DNA from: a virus
Virus record (IMG/VR): IMGVR_UViG_3300012920_000286
Location: 1-23,063 of that record
DNA: 23,063 bases
Reading direction: 5' to 3' (one strand)
Shown: piece by piece, positions 58-23,063 of the stretch
Numbering within the stretch: the stretch's first letter is position 1
Layout: each line of letters opens with the position of its first letter
Program-made: the position numbers and the translations under genes
Notes under the pieces: generated by a model
The model's database searches: none
What the model was told of the DNA's origin: nothing
Seen by the model: only the letters and a program-made list of their open reading frames with translations

Positions 58-63
58 CTCCTT
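58..63 (-). promoter_or_regulatory. Ribosome binding site of the partial left-edge gene
   Basis: AAGGAG on the minus strand, 7 bases before the ATG at 50. It overlaps the TAA stop of the upstream fibre gene. It fixes the start of the partial gene and suggests reinitiation by ribosomes finishing the fibre gene. Confidence 0.7.
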
Positions 64-3000
64 AGTTAAATGTAAACACTAGGTATAAATTTTCGCCCGC
101 TGTTGAAGAGCCTACCTGAGTTATATCAATAGTTAAATAATCATTTGCAGCAATCGAATGCGATAAGGAAGTTACATTTCCTGTTGTTGCACCATTAGCT
201 ATACTTACAACTTGTAAGTTTGATCCGTTTTTCTTTACTTGAACAGTTACTGCTGATCCAGCAGGTGCAGTATCTACATAAGCATGAATACTTTTTAGAG
301 TATATGCTTTTTGCAGATAAAGTCGTTTTGTACCGGTATTTGTTGATAAAGTATCATCAAATCTATAGGCTTTTATAAATTCTTGTACTGGCTGAGCAAC
401 CCAATCATAATCACTACCATTATAACTTAGTACTTCACCCGTGGCTGCAGTGCTAGTATTTAGGTGCGTATCAACACTTGCATCATTATAACTACCTGCT
501 GCGGTTACTTCCTGCTGAACAAACGCCGTAGTTGCTAACTGGGTTGTATTTGTTCCATTGCTCGCGGTTGGGGCAGTTGGAGTACCTGTAAATATTGGTG
601 AAGATAAAGAGGCTCCATCAGTAATACCATAGCCTGCTAAAGTAGTTGGCTTACCTGACAAACTACTAAAAGCACCGTCAAATCCACTAGGATCTACAGA
701 ACTCGGATTTGTTTGAACCCACTGATTAGAGCTGCCGTCCGCATAATAAACATAAAGTACTAAAGCATCATCATCAAACCACAAATCTCCTGCAGAAGGA
801 CTGCTGGGGGCAGAACTTGATACTGAAACATTTGCACCTGAACTAGCACCGGATACTGCTGATTGAACAAATGCTGTAGTAGCTATTTGAGTTGTATTAG
901 TGCTATAACTTGCAGTTGGTGCTGTTGGCGTCCCTGTAAGTGCAGGACTTGCTAAAGGAGCCGCATCTGTAATACCATACCCTGTAAGTGTAGTAGGAGT
1001 GCCTGTAAGAGCACTAAATGCTCCACTAAATATTTCTGATTGATTTGCTAATCTAACCCAGTTTCCTGCATGGGCAAAATAAGCTGCTCCTGTTGCATGA
1101 ACATGGGCAAACATACCATGGTATGTGCTTGCATTTGGCAGGTTAGACGTTTGAGAAAATACGTTTGAAAAATATGCCTTACCTGTTGTAATAAAATCAT
1201 TGCTACCAATATCAGCATCTGCTCCAGTAGTTAGAGCATCTGTAATACCATACCCTGATACAGTTGTAGGTTTGCCTGTTAAAGAGCTAAAAGATACTGA
1301 AGTTAAAAAACTACTAAGATCAGGAGGTGTATAACTAAATACGCCGCTAGAATTATTATAACTAAGTGCCCCTCCTCCAGAAGCACTATTAGAAGTAACA
1401 CTAAAGTCTGTAAGATTTACTGTTCCTGCTACCGCTGTTTGCACAAATGCAGTAGTTGCTATCTGAGTGGTATTATTACTTGATGCTGCAGTGGGAGCTG
1501 TCGGGGTACCAGAGAGAGCTGGACTAGCCAAAGGCGCTTTTGTACCTAAACTATTTGTTACTGTTGTTGAAAAGTTTGCATCATCACCAAGAGCAGCTGC
1601 TAACTCATTTAGTGTATCTAAAGCTCCTGGAGCTGAATCAATAACTGCATCTACTTTTGCTTGAACATCAGAGTCTTGTAACGCCCACACGGGATGTGCG
1701 GAAACTGTCAATGTAATATGAGAATTACTAGAATTTGAGGTACCTGGTGATGTAAAAGTAAAACTCTTAATTTTAGTATCTAGAGCATTTCCTGTTGATC
1801 TAGTAATAGAGTTTGAGTTTACTGTTGCTTGCGTATTATCTGCGTAAGTTACTACCCCGAGAGTAGGGGTATTAGACCCTGTACTCGAAAAAGACTCTAT
1901 AAAAATAGCAGTATTAAAAGATACTGTACCAGTTGGTAGTCCTGTTCCTAGTACTAGTCTAGTATCTGAAGCTCCTGCAGCAGGGATAGTTATAGTGGCA
2001 GAACTACTTGCTACCATACTGCTATCTAATGGCACTGTTGACGCAGAGGCCGCCATCTTATACAGGCCCCCTGCATTAGTATCTATCCAGATTTCATCAA
2101 ATGCTGAAAAAGTAGGGGCATTGTCTTGAAAATATACAGTATTATTTGTTTCAATAGAATCTTCTACAGTTGTATTTACAAATGCAGTTGTAGCTATCTG
2201 AGTGGTGTTTGTATTTAATGCAGCAGTGGGGGCTGTGGGTGTACCAGTAAGTCCCGGGCTTGCTAGTGGAGCTGCATCAGTGATACCATACCCTGATAAA
2301 GTTGTTGGTTTACCTGTTAAAGAACTAAAAGCACCATCAAATGCATCAGTAATCCCATACCCAGATATAGTAGTAGGCCTACCTGTTAATGAGCTGTATG
2401 CTCCATCAAATGCATCAGTAATTCCATATCCAGCTATAGTAGTAGGTTTACCTGTTAGACTTGCAAATGAAAACGTGGTATTTCCTGCAAGTGCAGTTGT
2501 GGCTGACGTTCCTAGCTGTAGTGCGTCAGTAATTCCATATCCAGCTATAGTTGTTGGTTTTCCTGTTAAAGAACTAAAAACACCATCAAATGCATCTGTT
2601 ATACCATAGCCCGCTATAGTATTAGGCTTACCTGTTAAAGAACTAAAAACACCATCGAATGCATCTGTTATGCCATAACCTGCAATCGTTGTGGGAGTAG
2701 AAGTAAGATCAGAAAAAACTAAAGAGTGGTTTACAAAATTTGTTCCATTATACTTTATAAATCCCTTATTTACTGTTAAGTTGGAAATAGAAACATTTGA
2801 AAGGTCTCCTAGCCCTGCGGTTGTTGCTAGGGCATCCGTGATACCATATCCCGCTAAGGTAGTAGGTTTACCTGTTAAAGAGCTAAAAGCCCCATCAAAT
2901 GCATCTGTTATACCATAACCTGCAATAGTAGTAGGTTTATTCAATAAGTCAGAGAATGAAAGCGGATAAATAATATACGCCAAAGAACTCCAAGCCGTAG

Positions 3001-3124
3001 AACCGTCTCCAACTTTTATTTTATTTGTATTAGTTTCTAATCCTAATTCTCCTGAATTAAGAGTAGGATTAGCAGAAGCCCAGTTACTGGAAGTATCTCT
3101 TCTTATCTGTATTCTTGCCGCCAT
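62..3124 (-). CDS. Repeat-rich tail fibre with Mtd-type N-terminal domain (1020 residues)
   Basis: Probable receptor-binding tail fibre. Residues 1 to about 52 match the N-terminal domain of the Bordetella phage major tropism determinant and related fibres (RIQIRRDT, GELGLETNTNKIKVGDGSTAW), a module that usually attaches the fibre to the tail. Residues about 55 to 285 hold eight of the eleven GYGITD repeats, many in a 23-residue unit of the form FSSLTGKPTTIAGYGITDAF, as in lambda Stf-type fibres. Four copies of a TGTPTAPTA...TTQIATTAFV module and one PGALDTLNELAAA module follow. The last ~105 residues look like a compact beta domain and could form the tip. The ATG directly abuts the TAA of the upstream 625-residue fibre gene, so translation is probably coupled. 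No fibre chaperone gene is visible next to it. The fibre class is clear; the receptor is unknown. Confidence 0.9.
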   Translation of the reverse strand: MAARIQIRRDTSSNWASANPTLNSGELGLETNTNKIKVGDGSTAWSSLAYIIYPLSFSDLLNKPTTIAGYGITDAFDGAFSSLTGKPTTLAGYGITDALATTAGLGDLSNVSISNLTVNKGFIKYNGTNFVNHSLVFSDLTSTPTTIAGYGITDAFDGVFSSLTGKPNTIAGYGITDAFDGVFSSLTGKPTTIAGYGITDALQLGTSATTALAGNTTFSFASLTGKPTTIAGYGITDAFDGAYSSLTGRPTTISGYGITDAFDGAFSSLTGKPTTLSGYGITDAAPLASPGLTGTPTAPTAALNTNTTQIATTAFVNTTVEDSIETNNTVYFQDNAPTFSAFDEIWIDTNAGGLYKMAASASTVPLDSSMVASSSATITIPAAGASDTRLVLGTGLPTGTVSFNTAIFIESFSSTGSNTPTLGVVTYADNTQATVNSNSITRSTGNALDTKIKSFTFTSPGTSNSSNSHITLTVSAHPVWALQDSDVQAKVDAVIDSAPGALDTLNELAAALGDDANFSTTVTNSLGTKAPLASPALSGTPTAPTAASSNNTTQIATTAFVQTAVAGTVNLTDFSVTSNSASGGGALSYNNSSGVFSYTPPDLSSFLTSVSFSSLTGKPTTVSGYGITDALTTGADADIGSNDFITTGKAYFSNVFSQTSNLPNASTYHGMFAHVHATGAAYFAHAGNWVRLANQSEIFSGAFSALTGTPTTLTGYGITDAAPLASPALTGTPTAPTASYSTNTTQIATTAFVQSAVSGASSGANVSVSSSAPSSPSAGDLWFDDDALVLYVYYADGSSNQWVQTNPSSVDPSGFDGAFSSLSGKPTTLAGYGITDGASLSSPIFTGTPTAPTASNGTNTTQLATTAFVQQEVTAAGSYNDASVDTHLNTSTAATGEVLSYNGSDYDWVAQPVQEFIKAYRFDDTLSTNTGTKRLYLQKAYTLKSIHAYVDTAPAGSAVTVQVKKNGSNLQVVSIANGATTGNVTSLSHSIAANDYLTIDITQVGSSTAGENLYLVFTFN
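1440..1646 (-). repeat. Fibre module shared with the neighbouring gene (copy 1)
   Basis: This segment encodes a 68-residue module running from IDSAPGALDTLNELAAALGD to QIATTAFVQ. A second copy lies at about 3354 to 3560 in the adjacent 625-residue fibre gene. By hand alignment 59 of 68 residues agree, while the DNA differs at many third positions. It is therefore a diverged duplicated or exchanged module, not a recent copy. Confidence 0.8.
2271..2937 (-). repeat. 69-base coding repeat array in the 1020-residue fibre gene
   Basis: Eight copies of a unit encoding GYGITDA occur here, beginning near 2898, 2829, 2658, 2589, 2520, 2409, 2340 and 2271. Several neighbours are exactly 69 bases (23 codons) apart; others are separated by unrelated inserts of whole codons. 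Three further single copies lie near 1228, 959 and 615. The copies differ mainly at third codon positions, so the repeats are old or selected at protein level. Such arrays can gain or lose units by recombination while staying in frame. Confidence 0.85.
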
Positions 3125-9924: not shown

Positions 9925-12066
9925 TTATGCTGTTTTATAGGTAATATTAAATCTTATACCTGTGTATGCCCCGCCTGTTGTAGTGGTTCTTAGAACATTT
10001 CCTACTGTTTGTGTATTCTCACCCCCAGTTGAACTAGAAGGAAGAATAATAAATCCGTGAGTGCTTCCTGGAGTTGCGAAAAAATATGCTCCGAGCATCA
10101 CCGACGCGGCTCTACCAGTAAAGTTAACGCTAGTGCAAGGAGTTTGAAGATTAGCACTTGATATTGTAAAGGGAAAATTTCTAATGTATAATATATTGCT
10201 AGAGTTTAGGCCGCTTGGATTTATATTTTGTGCTGGACAAGATACATGTACTATATCTCCTATTTTTGTAAAAGAACCGGTAGACTGAGTGCCTGCTGTT
10301 ACATGGTTTCCTCCAGATGCTGCATCTGCAAAATGTGGGGTCCAAGTACCTTCTTCGTAGTCATCAAGAGTATGCTGATCTGTGACAGCTCCAGTAAATC
10401 GTGCACCTCCATACAACTGCAAACTTTGGTCGTTGTTTATACGCATGGCCTCCGTAGCGTTAGTAAAAAAACGAAAACGATCGCTGCTATGCTGATAACC
10501 TATCTGCCCAACATTTGAATCATTTGCATCGCCAAAATACATCCAGTTATCTGCGTTCGTGCCACCAATTTGCATTCGCAAGAAAGTGTCATCTGAACTT
10601 CCGGCTCCCAATGTTTTAAGTCTAAGTATGGCGTCACCACTATCCTCCTCGATATCTAGGTTGTAGTTGAGCTGAGGACTGCGGCCAATGCCTACATCAC
10701 CATTGCTACTAATAACCATTCTTTCACTGCCGGCTGTATCGAATCTAATTGTATCTTCGTCTGAGGCTTCTTCTACTTGTATTTTTGTGTCGCCATCCGC
10801 ATCTTGTACTACAGTAGAAGAACTCCCGGATCCTGATGATGCTATTGTGATAATATCATTAGTAGCATCTGTAGTAAGTGTAATCCCAGTACCTGCTGCA
10901 AATGTCAATATGTCCGTAGGAGAATCTGCTACTACATTATTCTGGCCAGAAACAGCAATAGTACTAAACATGCTTCGTGATGTTGCTACCCAGTTTGTGC
11001 CGTTGTATTGTAGAAATGAATCTACAGCCGGAGTAGCTGCGCTAACATTTTGTAGGTCATTCAAACTTAGAAGATCAGTACGGTCTTTAATATCCCAGTG
11101 CGGATCTGTTGCTCCTCCGGGCACACTATATACTAAAACTTTTCCATCACCTAATGTCCCCTCAATATTAGCAAATACATCTGGGCCCAGCAAATTAGTT
11201 CTCGCTATCCAGTTCTGTCCGCTACCCCCTGGATACCAAAGAACTTTTGGTTTTGTGCTATTCAAACCTGTTATAGATACATCAGTATGATCGCCTAAAC
11301 CTTGATTTGCGATTGCAGAAGACATGCTTACATTTTCCCAGCGCGCAGTAGCAGTGTTATATTGTAGTACTTGATTGTCTGCGATTGAAGTTATATTTAC
11401 ATCTGATAAATTACCTATGCTTATATCTGCTCCCACATCGGCAGCAGTTTGGTATGCCCAAACCTGTGTACTGCTATTATATCGTAGAAGGAGTCCGTTT
11501 GAGGTAGGAGCAGTATTCGTTACATTGCTTAAATCTTGTAAACGGACATAAGAGCTTGTAACACTTCGTAAATCTTCAAATCCAAAAACATTTCCGCTTT
11601 TTGGTATAAGAACTTTAAAAATTGATGCATTATGAGTAGTTCCAGTAACATCTGCTAGATCATCTAAGTTTTGTACATGAGTTCCAAACTCTACTGTTCC
11701 ATTAGAAGCTACTTTAAGAACTTGTCCAGTGCTACCGCCATTTATAGATAAATTAGTACCATCAATATCAATAACAAGATCATTACCATCCCAAGTTACT
11801 TTTTGATTTGCAGGATCTCCTATTGCAACTTTATAATCTTCGTCTTGATAACCTAACCAGAAGCCTATACCTACATCCCAGTCAGTTTTTCCGCCCTTTA
11901 TACTACCTGCGTTACTAAAAGTTATTCCGCCCCCTAACTGATCCACGACAATACCAGAATTTAAGCCAAGGTCTGTTGCATCAGCGGGGCTTAAGTCCGT
12001 AGAAGTATCTTGATCAGAGGTACTGTCTATATAGAATTCAAATTTTATATCAGTTGTAGTACTCAT
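9925..12066 (-). CDS. Tail fibre-like protein with LSDV repeats and EEGTWTP head domain (713 residues)
   Basis: Probable side or tip fibre. Residues about 130 to 360 carry repeated modules of the form L.DLSDV...DNQVLQYN....W, for example IGNLSDVNITSIADNQVLQY, a repeat common in phage structural proteins. A region around SNGDVGIGRSPQLNYNLDIE follows, typical of fibre shafts next to knob domains. Residues ~565 onward begin TLDDYEEGTWTPHF and include GSFTKIGDIVHVSC, which mark a frequent C-terminal receptor-binding head in phage fibres. The ATG overlaps the J-like stop codon in a TAATG junction, and the upstream ribosome binding site is weak, so translation is probably coupled to J. This links the fibre physically and in expression to the tail-tip protein. 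No depolymerase active site was recognised. Confidence 0.85.
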   Translation of the reverse strand: MSTTTDIKFEFYIDSTSDQDTSTDLSPADATDLGLNSGIVVDQLGGGITFSNAGSIKGGKTDWDVGIGFWLGYQDEDYKVAIGDPANQKVTWDGNDLVIDIDGTNLSINGGSTGQVLKVASNGTVEFGTHVQNLDDLADVTGTTHNASIFKVLIPKSGNVFGFEDLRSVTSSYVRLQDLSNVTNTAPTSNGLLLRYNSSTQVWAYQTAADVGADISIGNLSDVNITSIADNQVLQYNTATARWENVSMSSAIANQGLGDHTDVSITGLNSTKPKVLWYPGGSGQNWIARTNLLGPDVFANIEGTLGDGKVLVYSVPGGATDPHWDIKDRTDLLSLNDLQNVSAATPAVDSFLQYNGTNWVATSRSMFSTIAVSGQNNVVADSPTDILTFAAGTGITLTTDATNDIITIASSGSGSSSTVVQDADGDTKIQVEEASDEDTIRFDTAGSERMVISSNGDVGIGRSPQLNYNLDIEEDSGDAILRLKTLGAGSSDDTFLRMQIGGTNADNWMYFGDANDSNVGQIGYQHSSDRFRFFTNATEAMRINNDQSLQLYGGARFTGAVTDQHTLDDYEEGTWTPHFADAASGGNHVTAGTQSTGSFTKIGDIVHVSCPAQNINPSGLNSSNILYIRNFPFTISSANLQTPCTSVNFTGRAASVMLGAYFFATPGSTHGFIILPSSSTGGENTQTVGNVLRTTTTGGAYTGIRFNITYKTA

Positions 12067-15000
12067 TATGTTGGTCTCGAAATATCAGCAGCAATTGCAT
12101 CATGGTTTACATCGGGCCTATACGTAGGAATATATAAATTAGATAAACTTTTTGCTGTAGTAAATGTTCTATCTAAGCTAAGTTCTGTATTTGAGAGTAC
12201 AGTTGTAACGATTGCTGCATCTCCTAAAGTTTCAGTTTGAGTAGATAAATTTGCTAAACTAATAATATCTCCTACTTGAACCTCTGACTCGAAAGATGTT
12301 CCAACTCCAACTAACTTGTTAGAGTTTGCTGCTAGTGTTGCTGAAGTCATTGTAAGAGCAGTCCAAGCATTTGCCATAGTTTCATTAGCATCTCTCCAAA
12401 AAGCGGGACCGTCTCCATTAGCACTTGTATCCCACTCTCCTAAAAATAGTTTAGGTACACTATAATCGAATACAATGTACAACTCTCGTGTATCATCATC
12501 AACAACGCTAGATAAGTCTACATTGCCATTCGGGGATTCTGTTGTAATAGTTACAAAATCATCGGGCGTCTCTCTTTGTGCAATTTGAACTGGGTATTTT
12601 TTAAATCTAAATACCTCTCCCCCGTAAGCATGCTCAGATCGATTTGATTTAATCTTATATAACTTATGCACTTGTCCATTACTACCGTGCCTTGACCCAT
12701 TGGCTACAAAAGCACCTGCTCTATACTCATATACTTTATTTGTAGCAGGATCTTCTGCTCTAACTACCTCGGTTGCTAGTGCGGCGGCGGAAACATTTCG
12801 AGTTGCAATAGCGTTCTCCCCGCCATTAGGAAGTCCAGTAGTAGCATTGTTAGTGGTTAGTAATAGATTTCCTGTTGTATTCCAATGATAATAGGCATAC
12901 TCAGGGGCAGTAGCATTTTTTTGATAAAATTCTACAATAAAATATGGAGAAGTAGTGCTATACTTTTCATTAGTACTAGTTTCTATATCCCTTACTATTT
13001 CTGGCTCTTCAGATGCTGTAATCCATTGTTTTAGTCCATGAATATTTTCACCTGACTCTGTTCCAATGCCGGGACTAGTTGCTGAGTATTCAGTTTCTAC
13101 CCACTCAGATACTGCTCCTTTGGGGGACATTGTTCTTACTTTAAAAGAATACTTGTTAGCAATTATTCCTTTAAATTCTTTATGGGTTTCAGTCTGTGTA
13201 AACATTCCAACATCGTCAATATTTGTCTGAATTTGAAATGCAGCTACAAAATTGGTCTCAGGGGGAGTAAATGTAAGCAATAAGCTAGTATCTGGAAAAG
13301 CGGTCGGCCCGGAGGGAGATACAAGTAAATTTGTAGGAGGAGGTATCTCCTCAGGTTCTTGTTCTGGTGCATCAGGGTTTTCAGGTACTACACCCAAGTC
13401 ATATCTATCTTCAATAGAAGTAAATTTTTCATTAAAGTGTTCTGTAGCAGAAACGTTGTATATATTTTTGTCCGATCTTTCTATATTTAGTATTCTGTAC
13501 TCTTTTGCGGTCCCTCTTTCGCCTATCTCTTTTAAAGTCCAGACTGCTCCGGCTGTAGGAGTACTAGTAAAAACATTCGAGCCTACTAAATTAACTGTTG
13601 AAACGCTTCCTGATGTTTCAGTAATTTGATGCCCTTCTGCTGTAATATAGGGCTTCCATTCTACAGAGATGGGGTTGCCATTAGCATCGAAAGCATTTGA
13701 TGCTAAAAATTCATCAGATAACGCTGTAAGAGTTAATGTATCTCGAACTCCATTACCATTAGTATCTGTATAAATAAAAGCTTCAGGCAACAAGTCTCCC
13801 CTAGAGTAAGAAACGCTATTTATAGTTAAAGTTAGAGATCCAGTATATACAGCTCCTGGCTCTGTAGACACAACAAAAATTTCGTAAGTGCCTCCTGTTA
13901 GCGTTACAGCTCTATCAAAAGTAACTGAGTTAGTTGTAGAACTTTGAATTCTACCACTAAATTGCACTCCTTTTCTATCTGCATCTTGTACACTTATTAC
14001 ATCACCAGGTCTTAAATAATTAGCCTCTAGTGAGGTACCAAAATATACTATTTCTTTTTGATTTTGAGCCGTCCAAAGCTTCCATTTTCCATAACGAATT
14101 GCCTGTGACTCAGACGTGCAGCCGTATGCAACACATTCTTCTGTAATAACTCGACCTCGATTAACTATATCACCACTATCCTCTACAATAAGAGGGGTAA
14201 GCTCATAATCAATTGTAGGATCGTTCCAATTTACAATTATTTGATTTGGTCTAGTTTTTAGAGAGGAGCTTTCATAAGTAAATCGACCATCTATAACATT
14301 TGCCTTTCCAAAAACCGCTATAGGATCTTGAGGAGTATCTTGAACAAGAGTAAGTTGGCCATCCATCCAGTATAGCATAGAAGTAAAGGCACTTGCCATA
14401 TCCTTTAAAACTTTATATACCGGTAAAGCTTTGGTTAAAAGAATATTCATTCTAAACCTTGGCTCCATTAGAGTTATTTCACCTGTTCCTGTAGGAGTAA
14501 CCTTTACACGAATTATATTGTCTACTGCATAAGTTGCCCCCGATGTTCCCGCTACAGTATTCCAGTCTGTATCTCCAAGAGTTACAATTTTGTAGTACTC
14601 GCCTCTTATAGCCCTTGTAGCAGGTATAGTATCATTACTATCAACTAATTCATCACAAAACTTAGAAATACGATAAAGAGAGTACTTGTCTATATCTGCA
14701 TCTTTTATCCATTTTCCAGCACCATACCTATTATTTGTAAGAATATCGTAAAAAATCCATGCAGGATTATCTGTATACTGTAGTTCTGACTTAAAACTGC
14801 CATCCCAGAAATTACCGTAAAGAGCTTTTCCAGTGGGAGAAGAATCTCTAGGAGTATATGCACTAGGAACCTTTACAAGCTTTCCTTTAATGTCATAGCT
14901 TCTTTTGGGCGGATCTTTAAAGTTACGAGAAGAAAAAGTAGAATTAACTATAGCAGAGTAAGGATAGCTAAATTTATCTTCATTAATTGCTTGTAAGTTA

Positions 15001-16499
15001 TCTACCTGCGATTTAAGTAAGACAGTATATCTTTGTTTATTTGTATTAAATCTACTTCTATCGATTCCTCCCATTGAAACTACAGGGAGACCAACATGTC
15101 TAGTAACTCTTATTATTTTTACTCTAAAATTTGTAAAGTTTAAATATCTATAAACTTCTAAATCAATCTGGTGCTGAAAATTTAACGCGGACTGTCTTTT
15201 ACCTTTATGCTTTACAAGACCTCCAAAGGGTTCTTGGGCATCTTGATATGTTGTTCCTCCATTAATTTGAAATTCTATTTTTATATCATAGAATGCATAA
15301 TTTGTATGACGATCCCCTTTCTCTTGATCTATACTTAGTATTCCTTGAGGATAAGTAATATCAAACCTAACTTTATCAGCTTCAGCAATCTTTGCAGCAG
15401 TATCTAAACCAAAATCACTTGCATTAAGTATAGTAGGAGAGTTATTAGTATCACTAAAATCAGGCGTCCCGGGATAGTCCCCATTGTCGGCAGTATTCGG
15501 CATACCATTTTGATCGAATAAAGTTACGCCATTTGCAGCCGCTTGAGATGGGTTTAAAAATTTTAAGTTAGGTAAGTTAACACCGCTTGTAGAACCTTGT
15601 ATTACAACAGAGCCTCCTACCCCTCCAACGTCTCTTATAGGCTCTTGGTCTAGCCACCCAGTATTTTCTTGAACATAAAGATTGTCAACTTTTCCGGTCA
15701 CTGTGTCAGGATTAAAGGTACCTGACCCTGTTGTGCCTTCGGTAGCATTATGATGGGGGCTCTGGGTAAGAGCAAATCCATAAGTTCCATTAAAAGATTG
15801 AGATTGGCCCGCATAATTAGTAGCAGCAACAGTAATTGTACCCGCAGTAGGATTTATAGCTGTGACTATTGCAACATGAACAATTTTTAGTTTTCCAGTC
15901 GAGCTAGCTGCAATAAACTCAGGAATAGGCCCAGCTTTGCTCCAAATAAACTGTCCACTAGTGGAATTAGTAACATTAAAATACCCAAAAATTACTGTAT
16001 CAGAAACACATAAATAAAGTTGTTTAATGCCATACTGAGATTGATGATCCGCTACAGAAAATCCCGAACCTGTAAGGGATAGAGTGTTATAATTTCCTGT
16101 TGAAGTGTGAGCACCTATATTAACACTAAGCTCTGTAGGGTCAGTTAAACGAATGATACGAGGAGTATTTGTATTATTGATTAACTCTAAAGGTATAAAA
16201 GTGTTATCATCTACAGTGCCTACCACTCCATTCGAAAAAGTAATAGTTCCAGATCTGTCACTTCCTTCCTCGTTTCTACTTGGAGAAAAAGACTTTAATT
16301 TTGCTTGTAACGCAGGATTATTGTCTAAATAAAGGGATGCGGCTCCCTCTACTAAACCGTGAATAGGGCCTTCGCACAAAACATCTGTAGCAGAAATATT
16401 TTGACCGATTGATCCTGAGTACACAGCACTATTAGTTTGGTTTCTTCCACCTCTGCGTGCGCCCATTATTAAAGCTAATGCATTACTATTAAACCCCAT
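12066..16499 (-). CDS. J: Central tail-tip / host specificity protein, lambda J-like (1477 residues)
   Basis: The tail-tip protein that trimerises at the end of the tail, contacts the receptor and helps open the envelope. The N-terminal region has the J signature GQNISATDVLCEGPIHGLVEG (about 32-52). The central region has EPRFRMNILL and a downstream WMDGQLTLVQDTP, as expected for J. A fibronectin type III-like domain follows a proline hinge near 1051, about residues 1051 to 1140. The protein is clearly longer than lambda J (about 1130). Extras include a GDTDWN-type insert around 620-678, a DTNGNGVRD loop near 910 that looks like a calcium-binding site, and a C-terminal beta-rich tail containing NKLVGVGTSFESEVQVGDI. 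A strong AAGGAGG lies 6 bases before the ATG, which overlaps the I-like stop as TAATG. Confidence 0.95.
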   Translation of the reverse strand: MGFNSNALALIMGARRGGRNQTNSAVYSGSIGQNISATDVLCEGPIHGLVEGAASLYLDNNPALQAKLKSFSPSRNEEGSDRSGTITFSNGVVGTVDDNTFIPLELINNTNTPRIIRLTDPTELSVNIGAHTSTGNYNTLSLTGSGFSVADHQSQYGIKQLYLCVSDTVIFGYFNVTNSTSGQFIWSKAGPIPEFIAASSTGKLKIVHVAIVTAINPTAGTITVAATNYAGQSQSFNGTYGFALTQSPHHNATEGTTGSGTFNPDTVTGKVDNLYVQENTGWLDQEPIRDVGGVGGSVVIQGSTSGVNLPNLKFLNPSQAAANGVTLFDQNGMPNTADNGDYPGTPDFSDTNNSPTILNASDFGLDTAAKIAEADKVRFDITYPQGILSIDQEKGDRHTNYAFYDIKIEFQINGGTTYQDAQEPFGGLVKHKGKRQSALNFQHQIDLEVYRYLNFTNFRVKIIRVTRHVGLPVVSMGGIDRSRFNTNKQRYTVLLKSQVDNLQAINEDKFSYPYSAIVNSTFSSRNFKDPPKRSYDIKGKLVKVPSAYTPRDSSPTGKALYGNFWDGSFKSELQYTDNPAWIFYDILTNNRYGAGKWIKDADIDKYSLYRISKFCDELVDSNDTIPATRAIRGEYYKIVTLGDTDWNTVAGTSGATYAVDNIIRVKVTPTGTGEITLMEPRFRMNILLTKALPVYKVLKDMASAFTSMLYWMDGQLTLVQDTPQDPIAVFGKANVIDGRFTYESSSLKTRPNQIIVNWNDPTIDYELTPLIVEDSGDIVNRGRVITEECVAYGCTSESQAIRYGKWKLWTAQNQKEIVYFGTSLEANYLRPGDVISVQDADRKGVQFSGRIQSSTTNSVTFDRAVTLTGGTYEIFVVSTEPGAVYTGSLTLTINSVSYSRGDLLPEAFIYTDTNGNGVRDTLTLTALSDEFLASNAFDANGNPISVEWKPYITAEGHQITETSGSVSTVNLVGSNVFTSTPTAGAVWTLKEIGERGTAKEYRILNIERSDKNIYNVSATEHFNEKFTSIEDRYDLGVVPENPDAPEQEPEEIPPPTNLLVSPSGPTAFPDTSLLLTFTPPETNFVAAFQIQTNIDDVGMFTQTETHKEFKGIIANKYSFKVRTMSPKGAVSEWVETEYSATSPGIGTESGENIHGLKQWITASEEPEIVRDIETSTNEKYSTTSPYFIVEFYQKNATAPEYAYYHWNTTGNLLLTTNNATTGLPNGGENAIATRNVSAAALATEVVRAEDPATNKVYEYRAGAFVANGSRHGSNGQVHKLYKIKSNRSEHAYGGEVFRFKKYPVQIAQRETPDDFVTITTESPNGNVDLSSVVDDDTRELYIVFDYSVPKLFLGEWDTSANGDGPAFWRDANETMANAWTALTMTSATLAANSNKLVGVGTSFESEVQVGDIISLANLSTQTETLGDAAIVTTVLSNTELSLDRTFTTAKSLSNLYIPTYRPDVNHDAIAADISRPT

Positions 16500-17146
16500 T
16501 AGTAGCCTCCTTGGTTAGGGATTGCTCTTCTTGCACTTTCGCTTGAGGTTCTCCTTGCATTATTGCCCGTTACACTTGAAATAAAACCATCTTCATTACG
16601 AATTTCAAAACTTATTGGTCTGCCCGGGATTCTCAGCCTTCCATAACATACGGGAATAGGATCGTCCGAACTAATATTTTGCTCTGATCCTGAAAATAGA
16701 TAAGAAAGATCTTCGTCATCCGTAGTAGGATCCTCAGATAAAAGCTCATACATACCTTGAGAGAATAAATATTGACCTGCTATATAAGCAAGACTTCCGT
16801 AAAGCGTGGAGCCCGCCATCAAAAGTGCTCCTCCTACCATTATAAGAGCAAATCCTGCAATAGCTTTAAAAGCACTTTTTAGAAATGCGCCTGCAGGGAC
16901 CGGCGTAATTACCATATCACCTTCAGGATACTCCAATAGTAACTCATCTGGACATGTCAGTTCTTGATTATTTATTTTCCAAATAAAATAAATTTCTTTT
17001 TCATAGCAATCTGCCAAGTAAGCTTTAAAATCTTCAAAGTTTGCTTGTAGACAAAGAAGCACATCTTTAAAAGAGTTAGCCTCAATTTGTCTCTCAAAGC
17101 CAAACTTTTCTCCAAGCTCTCCGTGTAAGTGTATTGTTCGTAGCAT
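16499..17146 (-). CDS. I: Tail-tip assembly protein, lambda I-like (215 residues)
   Basis: Homologue of lambda tail assembly protein I, which is needed to build the tail-tip complex with K, L and J. Residues 1 to about 85 look like a small ubiquitin-like beta-grasp domain (RTIHLHGELGEKFG ... GDMVITPVPAGA). A strongly hydrophobic Ala/Gly-rich stretch spans about 93 to 127 (GFALIMVGGALLMAG). Residues 148-182 hold the family motif SYLFSGSEQN...PIPVCYGRLRIPG. The hydrophobic segment could insert into a membrane, consistent with a role at infection, but that is inference. AAAGGAG lies 7 bases before the ATG, one base after the K-like stop. The K, I, J order and tight spacing match lambda-type tails, which makes the identification firm. 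Confidence 0.93.
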   Translation of the reverse strand: MLRTIHLHGELGEKFGFERQIEANSFKDVLLCLQANFEDFKAYLADCYEKEIYFIWKINNQELTCPDELLLEYPEGDMVITPVPAGAFLKSAFKAIAGFALIMVGGALLMAGSTLYGSLAYIAGQYLFSQGMYELLSEDPTTDDEDLSYLFSGSEQNISSDDPIPVCYGRLRIPGRPISFEIRNEDGFISSVTGNNARRTSSESARRAIPNQGGY

Positions 17147-17147
17147 T

Positions 17148-17459
17148 TTAAAGCTCCTTTGGGTCTACTATGTTCAATGACATATCCGGATATGTAAAAA
17201 TATAATATGGCAAGTTCAATGCCTTACAGTTATCTAAATCTGTTTGAGATGGCGTGTTGGGGGCCTCTACATGATCATGTACTATTGCTTTAATTTTATA
17301 TCTCATTACTAAATTTATATATTCGTCTGGACAAAATTTAAAGGTATAATTATCTTCTGCAATATTTTTACAAGGAATAAATTTATCTCCTTCAATGATT
17401 ACTCCACAACCCTCTCGTGGGTACTCATTCTCAAAGTGTTTATATATTTCATCTATCAT
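17148..17459 (-). CDS. K: JAMM-only tail-tip peptidase, lambda K-like (103 residues)
   Basis: Zinc metallopeptidase of the Mov34/MPN/JAMM type, equivalent to the first domain of lambda tail protein K. The full motif is visible: Glu16 in PREGCG, then H61-D-H63, seven residues, S71, two residues, D74 (HDHVEAPNTPSQTD). These are the usual zinc ligands and catalytic residues. Lambda-type K proteins normally carry a second NlpC/P60 peptidoglycan-hydrolase domain, which is absent here: the gene stops after 103 codons and the next gene begins at once. There is no sign of a broken remnant. The ATG overlaps the L-like stop as ATGA. The protein may process tail-tip parts during assembly or cut the cell wall during entry; the substrate is unknown. 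Confidence 0.93.
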   Translation of the reverse strand: MIDEIYKHFENEYPREGCGVIIEGDKFIPCKNIAEDNYTFKFCPDEYINLVMRYKIKAIVHDHVEAPNTPSQTDLDNCKALNLPYYIFTYPDMSLNIVDPKEL

Positions 17460-19375
17460 TTAAATTTCTTTGACCCCGGAAAGCCTCCAAAAGGTAAAGA
17501 CTTACTACTATTAAAATAAGTTGCATCAAGAAGTGTTCCGGCTAAACTCGGATCTCCACTTATAGCACTAACTACAGTATGAAATCTCATTTTACAGGAT
17601 CTAATTCTTTTACCGCATACATCTAGTCTTTTCCAATATATAGAATTTGTTTCAGGATCTTTTCCTGCTGGAGTTGCTATTAGTGCTTCATATATTCTCC
17701 AACCTCCCGCGCCTCCGGAGAATAATTTTTTTACTTTTGTTCCTGCACTGTATGATCCCCCCGAAGCCCACGTTTGAATAGAGTAAGCTCCTGAGGTAGC
17801 AGTTATATCTGCTGTAATAAGTTTGTCATCTTCATCAAAAAATGCTCCAAATACATTTGCAGGAACAGTACAGCCTCCTCGCTTATATAAAGCTCCTTGG
17901 TACTCCCATGCACAATATTTTCCTACTGCTCTTCTATTTGGAAGTGTAATATTATCTAAATCTGCGGGAGTTGCTAGTTCAAACTGAATAATTGCACTCT
18001 CTTCTCTGGAAACTCTATCTAGGTTATACACATGAGAAGGGTATTCAATAGGTAAAGAGCCTGCAGATGCTGTTGAAGAGTTAAAAGTATATTTTAATAA
18101 AGTGCTTCTATAGGTTATAGTTCCTCCTAAAAAAGATTCAGCACTGGACATTCCTTCATCAATAAAAATTTGCTCAAGATTTGTCTCATCATCAGTACCA
18201 TCAGTATTATTTGTAAGAGTTCTACTTAAAACAGGAACATTTGCCATCGCCAAAGTAGGCTTATTGGATCCTCCTCCCATTTTTGTCTCTATTCCATCTA
18301 TGGAAATAGGAAATGCTATATATTCATTTACTGCAGTGCCATCTTTGGATGGAAAGTATATATTTTTTCCTGTACCCGAGTCAAAGTTCAGACCATCATG
18401 CATGTATAAAGTGGTAGATCGAGGTTCTGGTAATTTCAGCTCAAAAAGATGAACAAGAGCATCTCCAGTTTCTTGTATTTGAGTATTTTCTATCAGCTCT
18501 GCGGGAGACTGGGATACGGTTCCAGATATAGTTATAGTTGTTTTTTTGTTGCCATTTGCATCATGAGCAATGAAGTCCCCCCATGAGCTTGTTCCCGTAC
18601 GAGTACCTGTTTGACTTGCAAATGCATATACTCCTGAAGCAACAACTACTCTATAAGTTCCATTTGCGGGTGCTTTAATAGCGTTTGCATGGGATACCGA
18701 GTCAGACTGAGTCATTTCAGTATATGTATCAGTAGTTTGATTATACATCCAAGCTCTGGAATTATTATCATTTCCGCCTTTACGAGTTGTTCTTACATAC
18801 TCTCCTTGAGCTAAAGTAAAAGTGGCTGAATAAGCTACTATATTTATAACTCTTTTTACTTGATTAACAAAAGTAGGAATAAATACACTAGAATTAAATT
18901 GAAGAAGGCCAGAAGTAGTTTTAACAACTTGAGATGTATTAGATACACCAGTATTTGCAAAGCTTCCTCCAGTATTAGTAACTAAAGGCAAGCCCCCATT
19001 GGAGTCCCAAGGCATAGCAGTGCCTGATCCAATTTTTTCATAGTTTACACCATTTACTGTCTCTCTTACTACTCCCCATTGAGGGCCTATTGCATTTGCT
19101 ACATTTGTATTCGGTATATCTGCAAGAATACCGTGAGGCACCTCAGGGCCTGTATTCGCTAGTGTAAACGAATATGCTCCTGTGAAATCATTTGCAAATG
19201 TGGCTGTAAACTGATTATCTGTATTCGCAATCGTAGTTGGAGTTACAGTACAGCCTGTTATGTTTGTAGCAGTTAAAGGGTAAATAACAGGCGCGAAGGT
19301 TACCTTAAGAGAGTCTCTATTAGTAAGATTAACGGTTGCGTCAGAGTCTGTTACTGTTATTGTTTTTATGCTCAC
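17456..19375 (-). CDS. L: Tail-tip protein, lambda L-like, with large N-terminal extension (639 residues)
   Basis: Homologue of lambda minor tail protein L, part of the tail-tip ring. The L-like part begins near residue 285 (ALVHLFELKLP) and includes a SNKPTLAMANVPV strand. Four C-terminal cysteines, C488 and C502 (KYCAWEYQ, KRGGCTVP) and C587 and C594 (VCGKRIRSC), precede KMRFH and LPFGGFPG. In lambda L four such cysteines bind an iron-sulfur cluster, so the same is likely here. Residues 1 to ~283 are an extra region absent from lambda L (232 residues in all). It starts with an Ig-like Thr-rich part and contains AWMYNQTTDTYTEMTQSD and a SSWGDFIAHD stretch. The start is a GTG at 19375 overlapping the M-like stop as GTGA. 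Confidence 0.92.
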   Translation of the reverse strand: MSIKTITVTDSDATVNLTNRDSLKVTFAPVIYPLTATNITGCTVTPTTIANTDNQFTATFANDFTGAYSFTLANTGPEVPHGILADIPNTNVANAIGPQWGVVRETVNGVNYEKIGSGTAMPWDSNGGLPLVTNTGGSFANTGVSNTSQVVKTTSGLLQFNSSVFIPTFVNQVKRVINIVAYSATFTLAQGEYVRTTRKGGNDNNSRAWMYNQTTDTYTEMTQSDSVSHANAIKAPANGTYRVVVASGVYAFASQTGTRTGTSSWGDFIAHDANGNKKTTITISGTVSQSPAELIENTQIQETGDALVHLFELKLPEPRSTTLYMHDGLNFDSGTGKNIYFPSKDGTAVNEYIAFPISIDGIETKMGGGSNKPTLAMANVPVLSRTLTNNTDGTDDETNLEQIFIDEGMSSAESFLGGTITYRSTLLKYTFNSSTASAGSLPIEYPSHVYNLDRVSREESAIIQFELATPADLDNITLPNRRAVGKYCAWEYQGALYKRGGCTVPANVFGAFFDEDDKLITADITATSGAYSIQTWASGGSYSAGTKVKKLFSGGAGGWRIYEALIATPAGKDPETNSIYWKRLDVCGKRIRSCKMRFHTVVSAISGDPSLAGTLLDATYFNSSKSLPFGGFPGSKKFK

Positions 19376-19758
19376 GGTTCGTATACTCTTCGTAAATTTG
19401 CAGTTATAGAATGAAAGTTTTCAGAGATGTAAGTAATATTATAGTCCTCACAAACTACTTTTTGTGCTGTATTTCCTGCCTTATCTGCGACGGTAAATGT
19501 AAATGCTTTTCCTATATTCTCATTAAAAAACTTTTCAATATTGTAAATATCTGCTGCTGCTCTATTATTAAAAGTAATCATAAACGTTTGATCTTTAGCA
19601 TTTACTCCATCAGCAACTCTTTGTTCATACCCATCACCAAATTTAGCTACAAGAACTCTGGGTATAGTATTTCTTGAAAGCCCTCTATCTGCTGTAACTA
19701 CTTGATCGGATGCGCCTGTTATTGCGGCTGGGATTGTAAATTGAAATTGAGCGGACAT
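19372..19758 (-). CDS. M: Minor tail protein, lambda M-like (128 residues)
   Basis: Homologue of lambda minor tail protein M, a small tail-tip part that sits between the last tail-tube ring and the L ring. The family motif FGDGYEQRVADGVN is at residues 40-53, followed by the expected TFMITFNN strand. Its length is near that of lambda M (about 109). Position between the tape measure and L genes is the lambda order. The ATG overlaps the tape measure stop in a TAATG junction. GGAG lies 7 bases upstream of the ATG inside the end of the tape measure gene, so both direct initiation and coupling are possible. The stop overlaps the GTG start of L. Nothing appears truncated. Confidence 0.95.
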   Translation of the reverse strand: MSAQFQFTIPAAITGASDQVVTADRGLSRNTIPRVLVAKFGDGYEQRVADGVNAKDQTFMITFNNRAAADIYNIEKFFNENIGKAFTFTVADKAGNTAQKVVCEDYNITYISENFHSITANLRRVYEP

Positions 19759-22700
19759 TATCGTGCTCCATACGGGCTAAGTAGCCCTCCAGGCCGTCTT
19801 TGAGTTTGTATTTCTCGCTGTACGGCTGCTGCGATTGCCTTGCCCATCTCTCTAGAGTCTCCTTCCGTTGTTGTATCTGCTCTTCCATCATTTTGAACAT
19901 TTACATTTACACTTACATTATTTGTTTGAGCACCTGCGCCGGACATTTCCACAGGTATTGAACGACCGTTTGGAAGAGGTACTACAGCTTCTGTACCATG
20001 AAGGGTTGCCAAGTAGCCTGCATCTGAACCTCTAGCAATTCCTCCTGTGGAGTATTTATCAAATACTCCTCCATGTCTAGCCTGAGGTGCTTTCATTACT
20101 CCACCGTAACGGCCATCAGCACCTCCTAAAAGTGACGATATAGGCCCAACTCCTGGGGCTCCGAACATGCCCATGGCTTTAGTAATAGCTTCCATTACTA
20201 AAAGTTTTGCAATTGCACGAGATGCTTCTTGTATCATCATTTCAGCAAATGCTCTAAAAGCATCTTTTGCTTTCATACTTCCGGCAATAACCTGTCCAAA
20301 AGCATCTACCATACCTTCTTCAAAGGACATTGCAAGATTTTCATATTCAATAAATAATTGATTTGTAAATATAACTTCTGCTTCTAGCTGCTCGAGCCTT
20401 TCGTCTGCTGCTGCTTTTGCATTGTCTGCTGCCGCAGATGCTGCGGCCTGCTGTGCCTGCTCAGCGTTATTTAACTGCCCTTGTAAACGTCCATAAGCTT
20501 CACTTTGGCCTTCAGTTAATCCGTCTCCAGAAATGTCAGCTTCCATTCGGGCTGTATTAATTTTTGCTCTAAGAAGTGCATACTCTGCGGAAATCATTTG
20601 AGACTTTACTTGATACTCTCGCTCAATTTGTTCTTTTTCCAGCTTAATTAAAGATCTAGCGGAGTCTCTTTCCATTCTAGCTCTTGTATTATCTGCTGTA
20701 AGATAGCCAAAGGGGTTACGAAGTCTGTCATCCCTAAGGGTTTTATCAATAGCTCTTGCATCAAACTGCTTAATAATTTCTAAAATTTCTCTTTGTGCTT
20801 GAACTTCTTTTTGCTTTTCTTGAACTATTTGTCTTTGAATTTCTAATTCTTTTTCTTTTTCTTTTGCTGTATTTACTGCTGCTTTTTCCGCTGCTACTCC
20901 TTGCTGCTGTAGATTTCGGCCTAAATCTTTTCCTAATTGCGCTAGATCGAGCCCAAGCTGTTTAAGAGCTGCCATTGCGTCTTTTCCAGTCTGACTATCT
21001 AAAAATTGCGTTCTCCCCTCTGGAGTAGTAAATCCATCAACTCTACCGTCGGAGACGAAATCTATCATAACTTCCATTTCAACTTTTTTAGTTTCTATTT
21101 CATCAACTAAATTTGCAATATTTGTTCTAATTTGTAATTCTTCATTTGCAAGCCTTACTTGCTCTTGCCTTTCATCTGTTTCATTTCCTATGATATCTGT
21201 CATCTGCAGAGCTGCTTGACTTTCTCTTTCTTTCTGTCTTCGCTGTAGTTCGGCGGTTCTTTTCAAAGTCTCTACTTGCCGAGCAAGCCCAGAAACTACT
21301 GTAGATTGTGTTTGCATTGCTTCGGAAGAGGTATTTGGAGACGACGCCATATCTTTAAGTATCTTACGTTGCTGCTCAAGCTGGACTTCAAAGCTAGCCA
21401 TTAACTGCGAGGCCTCAGATATCTCAAACATACTATTCATAAAACTTCTAAATTTATTCTGAAGCTGGCTCATTTCTTTAGCGGCTGCTGCCAATTCTTC
21501 TGTTAATTTAGATACAGCCCGAGTGCCGTTATCAAAATTTTCACCAAGCGCGTCGCCTATGGGACCTTCTTTAGCAATTATTTCATCAAGTGTCTCTAAA
21601 AGTCTATCTACTTCTGGGAAAGAGATTTTCGAGGTTTCTTGAGAAGTCCGTAGAACATCTCTCATTGCTACTGCTCTTTCTTTTATTGCGGCATTTCGTT
21701 TTTCATTTGCAAGAAATTCCTTTCTTTCTTCAGAAAAGTGGCCCGCATCTTTTGCATCTTCTATAAAGTCATCCGCGGCAAAGTAACCTCCCAGAGCTCC
21801 GGCCCCAATCGCAAGAGCTTTACTCCCTAATTTTACAAGAGGATGCGGGACTGCAGCAGCTACGAAGTTTAAAGCGTTTCGTAACATAAAGGCGCCTGTA
21901 GCCATAGCAGCAAACCCAGCATACATCTTTTTGCTGCTCTCTTCTGAAGTCTCTGCCATTTCTTTCTGCGTTAGTCCCGTCTCCTGCATTATCTCACGCA
22001 TGGTTTTAAACTCTGCCGCAGTGTTGGCGCCAAAGAAAGAAGACATATTTTCATAAAATTTTAGGCTACCTGCACTGCTCAATTCCTTTTGAATCTCTGC
22101 AAATTGAGAAAACTCTTTGTTAATACTTACAAGTCGATCTAAAAATACTTGAGCATCTCTTGCTTGCTTTTCAAGCTTTAAATCTTCTTCAGTCATAGGG
22201 CCTGCAGTAAGCTCTTTATACATTTGATAGCCTGTAAATGCCAAGGCTGCATAAGATACAAGGCTGAGTGCAGAAGAAAAAGCAGAAGCAATACCGGCAG
22301 CTGCAGCTTTTGCTACAGCTGAAATACCAGCAAAGTAACCCTTCATTCTAAGGCTAAAAAGTTGAGTCTTTTTAAGAGTAGTAGATTGTGCTGCATTCAT
22401 TGCTGTATATGCTTCGCTCATCTCACGAACCATATGAATTTTCATGCCTGTGAAGGCCCCTTTTACAACTACTCCTGAACTATTTACATGATTTTCTGCT
22501 GCCGTTACTGCTGCTTTAAATCTTGCTACTTCTGTACCACTTAAATCTTTTCCCCTACTAAGAGTGGTTAAAAAGCCTCCTTTTGCTCCATCCGCTATTC
22601 CTACTCTCGCAAGGGACTGTAGATCTTGTTTAAAATCTTCCGTGTTTTTAGAGGCTATTTTTACCTCATCACTTACATTTCTATAAAACTCCAACTGTTC

Positions 22701-23063
22701 TGCCGCTGACTCTTTAGCGGCGTCAGCGATACCTGTAAAGCTTAGTCCTAGGGCTCTTAAGGGGCCCGACAGTAAAACGCCTAAAGAAGCTACTGCAATT
22801 GCCGGAGTGTCTTGGAGAACTTTTGCTAAGGGGCCTGCTATCTCATCGACAACTTCTTTTACTTTCATGATTATATCATCAAAAGCTTTTTGAAGTTGAG
22901 CATATTGATTAGGGGTTCGTCCTATTATATCCAGTATTTTTCCGTACTTACCTTCTGCCTGTGCTAGTATTTCGGTAGTTACGGCTTGGCCTTTTTGAAA
23001 TGTAGTTAACGAATTTTGATTAATATTTAAAGCTTCTGCATATTTTCTCGACGCATCGTCTAG
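19758..23063 (-). CDS. H: Tape measure protein, lambda H-like (partial, 5' end outside window)
   Basis: The tape measure protein sets tail length and is ejected with the DNA. The reading frame stays open through the right edge: the 65 codons before the internal ATG at 22868 also look coding (QAEGKYGKILDIIGRTPNQY), so that ATG is not the start and at least 1101 codons are visible. Features include hydrophobic Ala/Gly-rich segments (VASLGVLLSGPLRALGLSF; AAAAGIASAFSSALSLVSY; ALAIGAGALGGYFAA) that may form membrane helices at infection. Long Gln/Glu/Lys/Arg-rich coiled-coil stretches fill the middle. A typical tape-measure C-terminus has HGGVFDKYSTGGIARG and HGTEAVVPLPNGRSIPVEM. The stop overlaps the M-like start. 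The tail chaperone genes expected upstream are outside the window. Confidence 0.93.
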   Translation of the reverse strand, partial: LDDASRKYAEALNINQNSLTTFQKGQAVTTEILAQAEGKYGKILDIIGRTPNQYAQLQKAFDDIIMKVKEVVDEIAGPLAKVLQDTPAIAVASLGVLLSGPLRALGLSFTGIADAAKESAAEQLEFYRNVSDEVKIASKNTEDFKQDLQSLARVGIADGAKGGFLTTLSRGKDLSGTEVARFKAAVTAAENHVNSSGVVVKGAFTGMKIHMVREMSEAYTAMNAAQSTTLKKTQLFSLRMKGYFAGISAVAKAAAAGIASAFSSALSLVSYAALAFTGYQMYKELTAGPMTEEDLKLEKQARDAQVFLDRLVSINKEFSQFAEIQKELSSAGSLKFYENMSSFFGANTAAEFKTMREIMQETGLTQKEMAETSEESSKKMYAGFAAMATGAFMLRNALNFVAAAVPHPLVKLGSKALAIGAGALGGYFAADDFIEDAKDAGHFSEERKEFLANEKRNAAIKERAVAMRDVLRTSQETSKISFPEVDRLLETLDEIIAKEGPIGDALGENFDNGTRAVSKLTEELAAAAKEMSQLQNKFRSFMNSMFEISEASQLMASFEVQLEQQRKILKDMASSPNTSSEAMQTQSTVVSGLARQVETLKRTAELQRRQKERESQAALQMTDIIGNETDERQEQVRLANEELQIRTNIANLVDEIETKKVEMEVMIDFVSDGRVDGFTTPEGRTQFLDSQTGKDAMAALKQLGLDLAQLGKDLGRNLQQQGVAAEKAAVNTAKEKEKELEIQRQIVQEKQKEVQAQREILEIIKQFDARAIDKTLRDDRLRNPFGYLTADNTRARMERDSARSLIKLEKEQIEREYQVKSQMISAEYALLRAKINTARMEADISGDGLTEGQSEAYGRLQGQLNNAEQAQQAAASAAADNAKAAADERLEQLEAEVIFTNQLFIEYENLAMSFEEGMVDAFGQVIAGSMKAKDAFRAFAEMMIQEASRAIAKLLVMEAITKAMGMFGAPGVGPISSLLGGADGRYGGVMKAPQARHGGVFDKYSTGGIARGSDAGYLATLHGTEAVVPLPNGRSIPVEMSGAGAQTNNVSVNVNVQNDGRADTTTEGDSREMGKAIAAAVQREIQTQRRPGGLLSPYGAR

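Follow-up and report, generated by a model that had tools for sequence, protein, structure and literature searches.

The window, i.e., the whole 23,063-nucleotide stretch of virus record IMGVR_UViG_3300012920_000286 that was analysed, carries a lambda-like row of tail genes on its minus strand, in which Pfam and PHROG matches reveal the order L-K-I-J known from lambda. The J-like protein of this row matches PHROG 31 ("central tail fiber J") with an E-value of 8e-126 and Pfam PF13550 with 8.1e-20, and its predicted fold, taken from a model with a mean pLDDT of only 72.5, could be superimposed on lambda J in the open tip (8xcg_F) with a Z of 26.2 and an rmsd of 8.6 over 566 residues. On these family matches, the hub fold and the gene order, the protein is a member of the lambda gpJ family. 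The features of the row and of the segment under study are the following:

12066..16499, minus strand: J-like tail tip or hub protein, 1477 aa (PHROG 31 and PF13550)
14454..14465, minus strand: EPRF, conserved strand start past the loop, J residues 679-682 (from the sequence)
14469..14642, minus strand: whole insert, J residues 620-677 (from the CDELV and EPRF positions and the loop comparison)
14469..14603, minus strand: module core, J residues 633-677, GEYYKIVTLGDTDWN...PTGTGEITL (from the module profile and the AlphaFold2 model)
14604..14642, minus strand: lead-in linker of the insert, J residues 620-632, DSNDTIPATRAIR (from the sequence)
14643..14657, minus strand: CDELV, conserved end of a hub helix ahead of the loop, J residues 615-619 (from the sequence)
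16499..17146, minus strand: gpI-like tail assembly protein (PHROG 32, 7.9e-25)
17148..17459, minus strand: gpK-like JAB-domain protein (PF14464, 3.2e-10; PHROG 30, 7.2e-24)
17456..19375, minus strand: gpL-like protein, 639 aa, module-free in the window (PF05100, 1.3e-15)
in the tail row of the window, minus strand: gpM-like protein (PF05939)
19758-23063, minus strand: long open frame, putative tape measure, taken as such from the tail gene row

In the gpL-like protein about 380 residues precede the best PF05100 stretch, and a segment near its end (WASGGSYSAGTKV...GKDP) may resemble a chitin-binding type module. Positions 62-3124 encode a tail fibre whose N-terminal domain is of the Mtd type (PF18454) and which has many SLTGKPTT-GYGITDA repeats.

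In J, 59 residues separate CDELV from EPRF, and both flanks are strongly conserved: C615, D616 and L618, as well as E679-F682, are invariant in alignment A4 of the J fold (46 rows, the window plus 45 of 63 other distinct J). The sequence-only reading had placed an insert at 14465-14640, a few bases from the 14469-14642 measured here, and had held that CDELV is normally followed closely by EPRF. Both statements were borne out, as only 5-6 residues lie between CD..V and the EPR-type strand in all five solved J-like tail tip sequences (lambda J twice, the F2 pyocin fibre, gp24 of 23gd and the putative tail fibre 9l9p). Among 94 distinct IMG/VR J proteins the gap between the last residue of CDELV and the first of EPRF was 7 residues in 62 proteins and in L079 (where a value of 46 was an artefact of the pattern), 13 in seven and 58-62 in 24. 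Hence 70 of the 94 have a short loop of 7 or 13 residues, plain J having only a DGxGG-type turn at this site, and all 24 long loops hold the module described below. The segment is found in a minority of the J proteins aligned and in none of the five solved ones, so that the condition named as refuting the sequence-only reading, its presence in most J proteins, does not hold; the 24/94 is no frequency, since the 94 sequences were fetched with queries near the window and form a non-random sample enriched for its relatives (80/195 and 80/508 relatives were kept, and four J open frames lacking the site pattern were left out).

The record of the window contains a single copy of the module, and J relatives of 48-86% whole-protein identity keep the insert. 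This retention, together with a dN/dS well below 1 in the close relatives, argues that the insert is not a product of chance. The window is a 23 kb virus record and likely a fragment, which might raise the thought that the metagenomic contig was misassembled or misread; the probability of such an error is negligible, given an open frame free of stops, ten other distinct J of the same clade that share the insert, and an independently predicted J of an uncultured phage (A0A6J5LKF8) that holds the same fold.

The module comprises about 45 residues and is marked by a Y-x-I strand followed by G-x-T-(D/N)-(W/F), G-D-x-F and G-x-G-T-G; it exists in a long (AGTSGVTYAVGD) and a short (IGASSNTVG) subtype. 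In the window YYKIV... begins at J residue 635 and PTGTGEITL spans residues 669-677, and part of the lead-in linker is covered by a strand that the J model predicts at 618-626. A sequence profile derived from the J inserts together with their matches recognised the window's own copy (L076) with an E-value of 4.4e-15. From 97 sequences (96 modules, most of the 141 listed, plus the window, with the boundaries of L005 set by hand), AlphaFold2 predicted the window's module core to be a compact alpha/beta domain with a pLDDT of 95.2, composed of strands 635-640, 662-664 and 674-677 and a helix at 646-650 (J numbering), and the same elements recur in the J model with a block pLDDT of 82-89. The fold is common to predicted viral proteins in BFVD, with 11 matches at a probability of at least 0.97; in this database A0A6J5KXS1 reached a TM of 0.91, and A0A6J5LKF8, annotated as "Tip attachment protein J", a TM of 0.83 with an rmsd of 1.1.

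Pfam, NCBIfam and PHROG contain no family for the module, the 97 modules gave no consistent Pfam match and none to an Ig or fn3 family, and the window's insert reached phrog_11281 with an E-value of 0.1-0.2 only. The carbohydrate-binding domain of BppA (PF22637) was considered and set aside: against a cut-off of 27 bits it scored 17 with the window's insert and 16.9 in one of the 97 modules. The PDB yielded no chain by sequence (best E-value 1.4) and no significant relative by Foldseek; the best of 27 chains compared, the SH3-like FeoA 3e19_A, was a weak match (Z 3.5, rmsd 2.4, 45 residues). An Ig-like or FNIII domain is a seven-strand beta-sandwich of about 80-100 residues, and this identity was rejected for the module, whose 57-residue model shows one helix and three to four strands.

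The history of the insertion was followed on trees of the J core from which the insert had been removed. A tree of 64 rows required two changes between carrier and plain J, and a tree of 93 rows, from which the long branch of L079 was excluded, required four, at least three of them forced by starred branches; a tree with all carriers in one clade was rejected, its lnL being 246 lower (p-AU 3.3e-38). Carriers form clades A and B (together 16 rows including the window), which are deeply split from each other, clade C (L225, L039, L227 and L408), and the pairs L377/L378 and L384/L388. Eight rows, four of them plain J and four carriers, form the group that contains clade C, with a support of 100/99. 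The changes on the tree do not by themselves distinguish gain from loss, and they are read as gains because of the nesting of the carriers, the module subtypes and the closeness of the J copies to modules outside J. That the carriers sit among module-free J supports the earlier suggestion that the module has moved into J.

The 13-residue loop found at the same J site in L024, L246, L244, L241, L247, L038 and L376 (e.g., PSGNKDANGDDIL) is rich in D and N, arises at several places on the tree, and may be a metal-binding turn.

When partners from the same clade were disregarded, each of the 19 distinct J-site modules in clades A, B and C scored best against a non-J module. The non-J pool is the larger one, and the comparison was repeated with non-J samples cut to equal size; it covers the three clades, with the pairs L377/L378 and L384/L388 outside it. 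With equal pools, clade C modules were nearer to non-J modules than to those of A or B (in 0.9995 and 1.0 of the samples), the value for A versus C was 0.913, and A and B were not separated (0.88 and 0.12). Judged by these sequence distances, A and B may go back to one capture and C to another.

These results also bear on the alternative that an early J already had the module and that most lineages lost it cleanly, by which one could explain why all carriers use the same loop, and which a tree that counts changes without direction would accommodate. Such an ancestral insert is very improbable: a single gain among the nested carriers would need about ten losses (counted by hand on the printed tree), the modules fall into two subtypes, with AGTSGVTYAVGD in A and B and ASNTVG in C, clade C modules are closer to non-J modules, and 5/5 solved relatives are plain. 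By contrast, comparison of the sequences makes it highly probable that the same short hub loop of J captured the module at least three separate times.

The J loop is one of several sites in the tail tip at which the module occurs. In L230, L231 and L232, which have a plain J and are sisters of clade C, the gpL homolog carries the module between the cysteines of its C-terminal (Fe-S) part. Among the clade C phages gpL is visible in three and is free of the module in each; in L229, the remaining plain-J sister, the visible part of gpL is just 176 residues long. This distribution has prompted the explanation that the module stabilises the contact between gpL and gpJ and may occupy either partner, as would be suggested by three of the four plain-J sisters having it in gpL while three clade C gpL are without it. 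Over the whole sample, however, the module was found in gpL in 0/16 phages with a carrier J and in 3/39 with a plain J, numbers that are far too few to show an exchange or to claim an exclusive use of J or gpL, and most plain-J phages have the module in neither protein, so that an exchange within the tip is quite unlikely. In two distant hub proteins that are plain at the J site (L191:2894-5776 and L162:2174-5581), the module sits in a later hub loop, shortly past the part alignable with the J hub, and in L225, L227 and L247 the C-terminal half of J has an additional copy.

The statement of the sequence-only reading that the insert resembles a module of other phage structural proteins was supported by the profile, which matched many virion proteins. 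It gave 346 matches, 231 of them distinct, in loci L001-L299, and the module was present singly or in tandem, with up to seven copies per protein. A scan of 33 of the 77 non-redundant non-J carriers revealed, among others, PHROG families of tail sheath, baseplate wedge, tail fibre, tail spike, distal tail, minor tail and virion structural proteins. PHROG 31 was matched by one of the 33, a J relative missed by the J query. The gene directly after the plain and very divergent J of L079 (L079:3206-6970) has five module copies, and two of these are, for some J-site copies, the closest matches outside J. A tblastn search of 50,697 phage records with the window's own copy gave no match; other copies matched one to three records each, and a fourth query matched none, perhaps owing to the low-complexity filter. 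The named matches were cyanophage S-TIM54 and two Manatee Spring phages, with none annotated as J.

Bacterial genome contigs contributed 34 loci with the short subtype, none of them in a J, and seven pattern matches but no relative of the long subtype; nearly all of the 34 contigs come from MAGs, and phage DNA may be among them. A Pfam scan of 11 of the 34 loci identified three PilY1 proteins and three proteins without a family. The PilY1 carriers (L318:4648-9102, L310:5440-9747 and L301:5062-9192, from MAGs of Rhodoferax, a beta proteobacterium and Polaromonas) have two to four modules ahead of the propeller, and L327 is a giant autotransporter-type protein with autotransporter repeats and YDG and MBG domains that likewise carries the module.

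Taken together, we lean slightly toward the explanation that the module, about 45 residues long, is extracellular and portable, that phages move it from one virion protein to another, and that the J loop has captured it repeatedly. What it does there is more tentative. Many of the phage and bacterial carriers are surface proteins, and for this reason weak surface contact (adhesion) is our best guess at its role, though one held with less than even confidence; it rests on where the module occurs, as no ligand, partner or aromatic groove was identified, and it is weakened by carriers such as distal tail and sheath proteins, for which contact with the host is not required. Just behind ranks a neutral or structural decoration, in which the loop accepts any small, fast-folding domain and a common module spreads because it does no harm, or else makes the tip stiffer, with no binding involved. 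Such a decoration is possible, somewhat doubtful, and finds support in carriers as diverse as sheath, baseplate and minor tail proteins, in the absence of the module from 70/94 J, and in the faster evolution of the insert relative to the hub: for L004-L006, dN was 0.26 in the insert versus 0.07 in the hub, with a similar dS (0.76-0.80 versus 0.92-0.96). It is opposed by the observation that each of the 24 long loops is occupied by this module, no other domain occurring there, by an insert dN/dS that stays well below 1, and by the retention of the module across the deeply split clades A and B. An insert under purifying selection that yet changes faster than the hub fits an exposed but constrained domain.

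Ig-like domains were reportedly described on phage virions by Fraser in 2006, and they offer a comparison for a mobile domain of this type. Like the module, phage Ig-like domains such as those of Hoc are portable, surface-displayed and found in unrelated virion proteins, and they are thought to aid adhesion (PMC10385173); they are beta-sandwiches, whereas the module, at about 45 residues, is built of one helix and three to four short strands. Lambda gpJ (PDB 8iyk, 8k35, 8xcg and 9e7m) shares with the window J the hub fold, the L-K-I-J order and the flanks of the insert, but differs in having a 5-6 residue turn at the insert site, and lambda's own inserts, HDII-ins, FNIII-A (72-215) and 483-569, lie elsewhere (PMC10721106, PMC11101478). 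In Salmonella phage Jersey, gp32 likewise has a small domain, HDII-ins3, added to a lambda-like hub; this domain is Ig-like and located in the N-terminal finger, in contrast to the smaller alpha/beta module in another loop, and its authors, who also treat C-terminal variation of gpL, describe the region as a hypervariable focus that presumably lies near the cell wall (PMC13243795). Fragments common to otherwise unrelated phage proteins, as the module is, are also known from the mosaicism of receptor-binding proteins (PMC10684548), and the excerpt of that source mentions neither the module nor the J loop. Siphophage hubs with added domains (lambda FNIII-A, Jersey HDII-ins3) and phage domain shuffling are already known; in the open-licence literature searched, no description was found of the module or of this insert, or of a single J loop that captured the same unnamed module repeatedly.

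The lumen of the lambda tip, which tapers from about 3 nm to 2 nm, contains gpI and gpH (PMC11101478, PMC10721106). By analogy, three additional domains inside such a narrow, occupied lumen are unlikely, and an outer position is likely. The loop would then tolerate a domain by pointing away from the hub core and the lumen, three module copies per tip would be displayed outside, and, as is thought for Ig-like domains, they might touch the host surface weakly close to the membrane. A more specific proposal, which is unlikely, holds the module to be a mobile domain that binds a ligand, with the CDELV-EPRF loop serving as its docking slot in the siphophage hub: plugged into J, gpL or another hub loop, the module would provide three extra binding sites next to the membrane, which would act at DNA ejection as a second layer of contact besides the tail fibre.

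The module constitutes a domain shared by phage and adhesin surfaces and unnamed in the databases searched, and its presence marks a natural insertion site in the J of uncultured phage lineages. The tail-tip hub is usually viewed as a conserved core, with variation located at the fibre end, and it is this hub that the module appears to have entered repeatedly, each time by one and the same loop.
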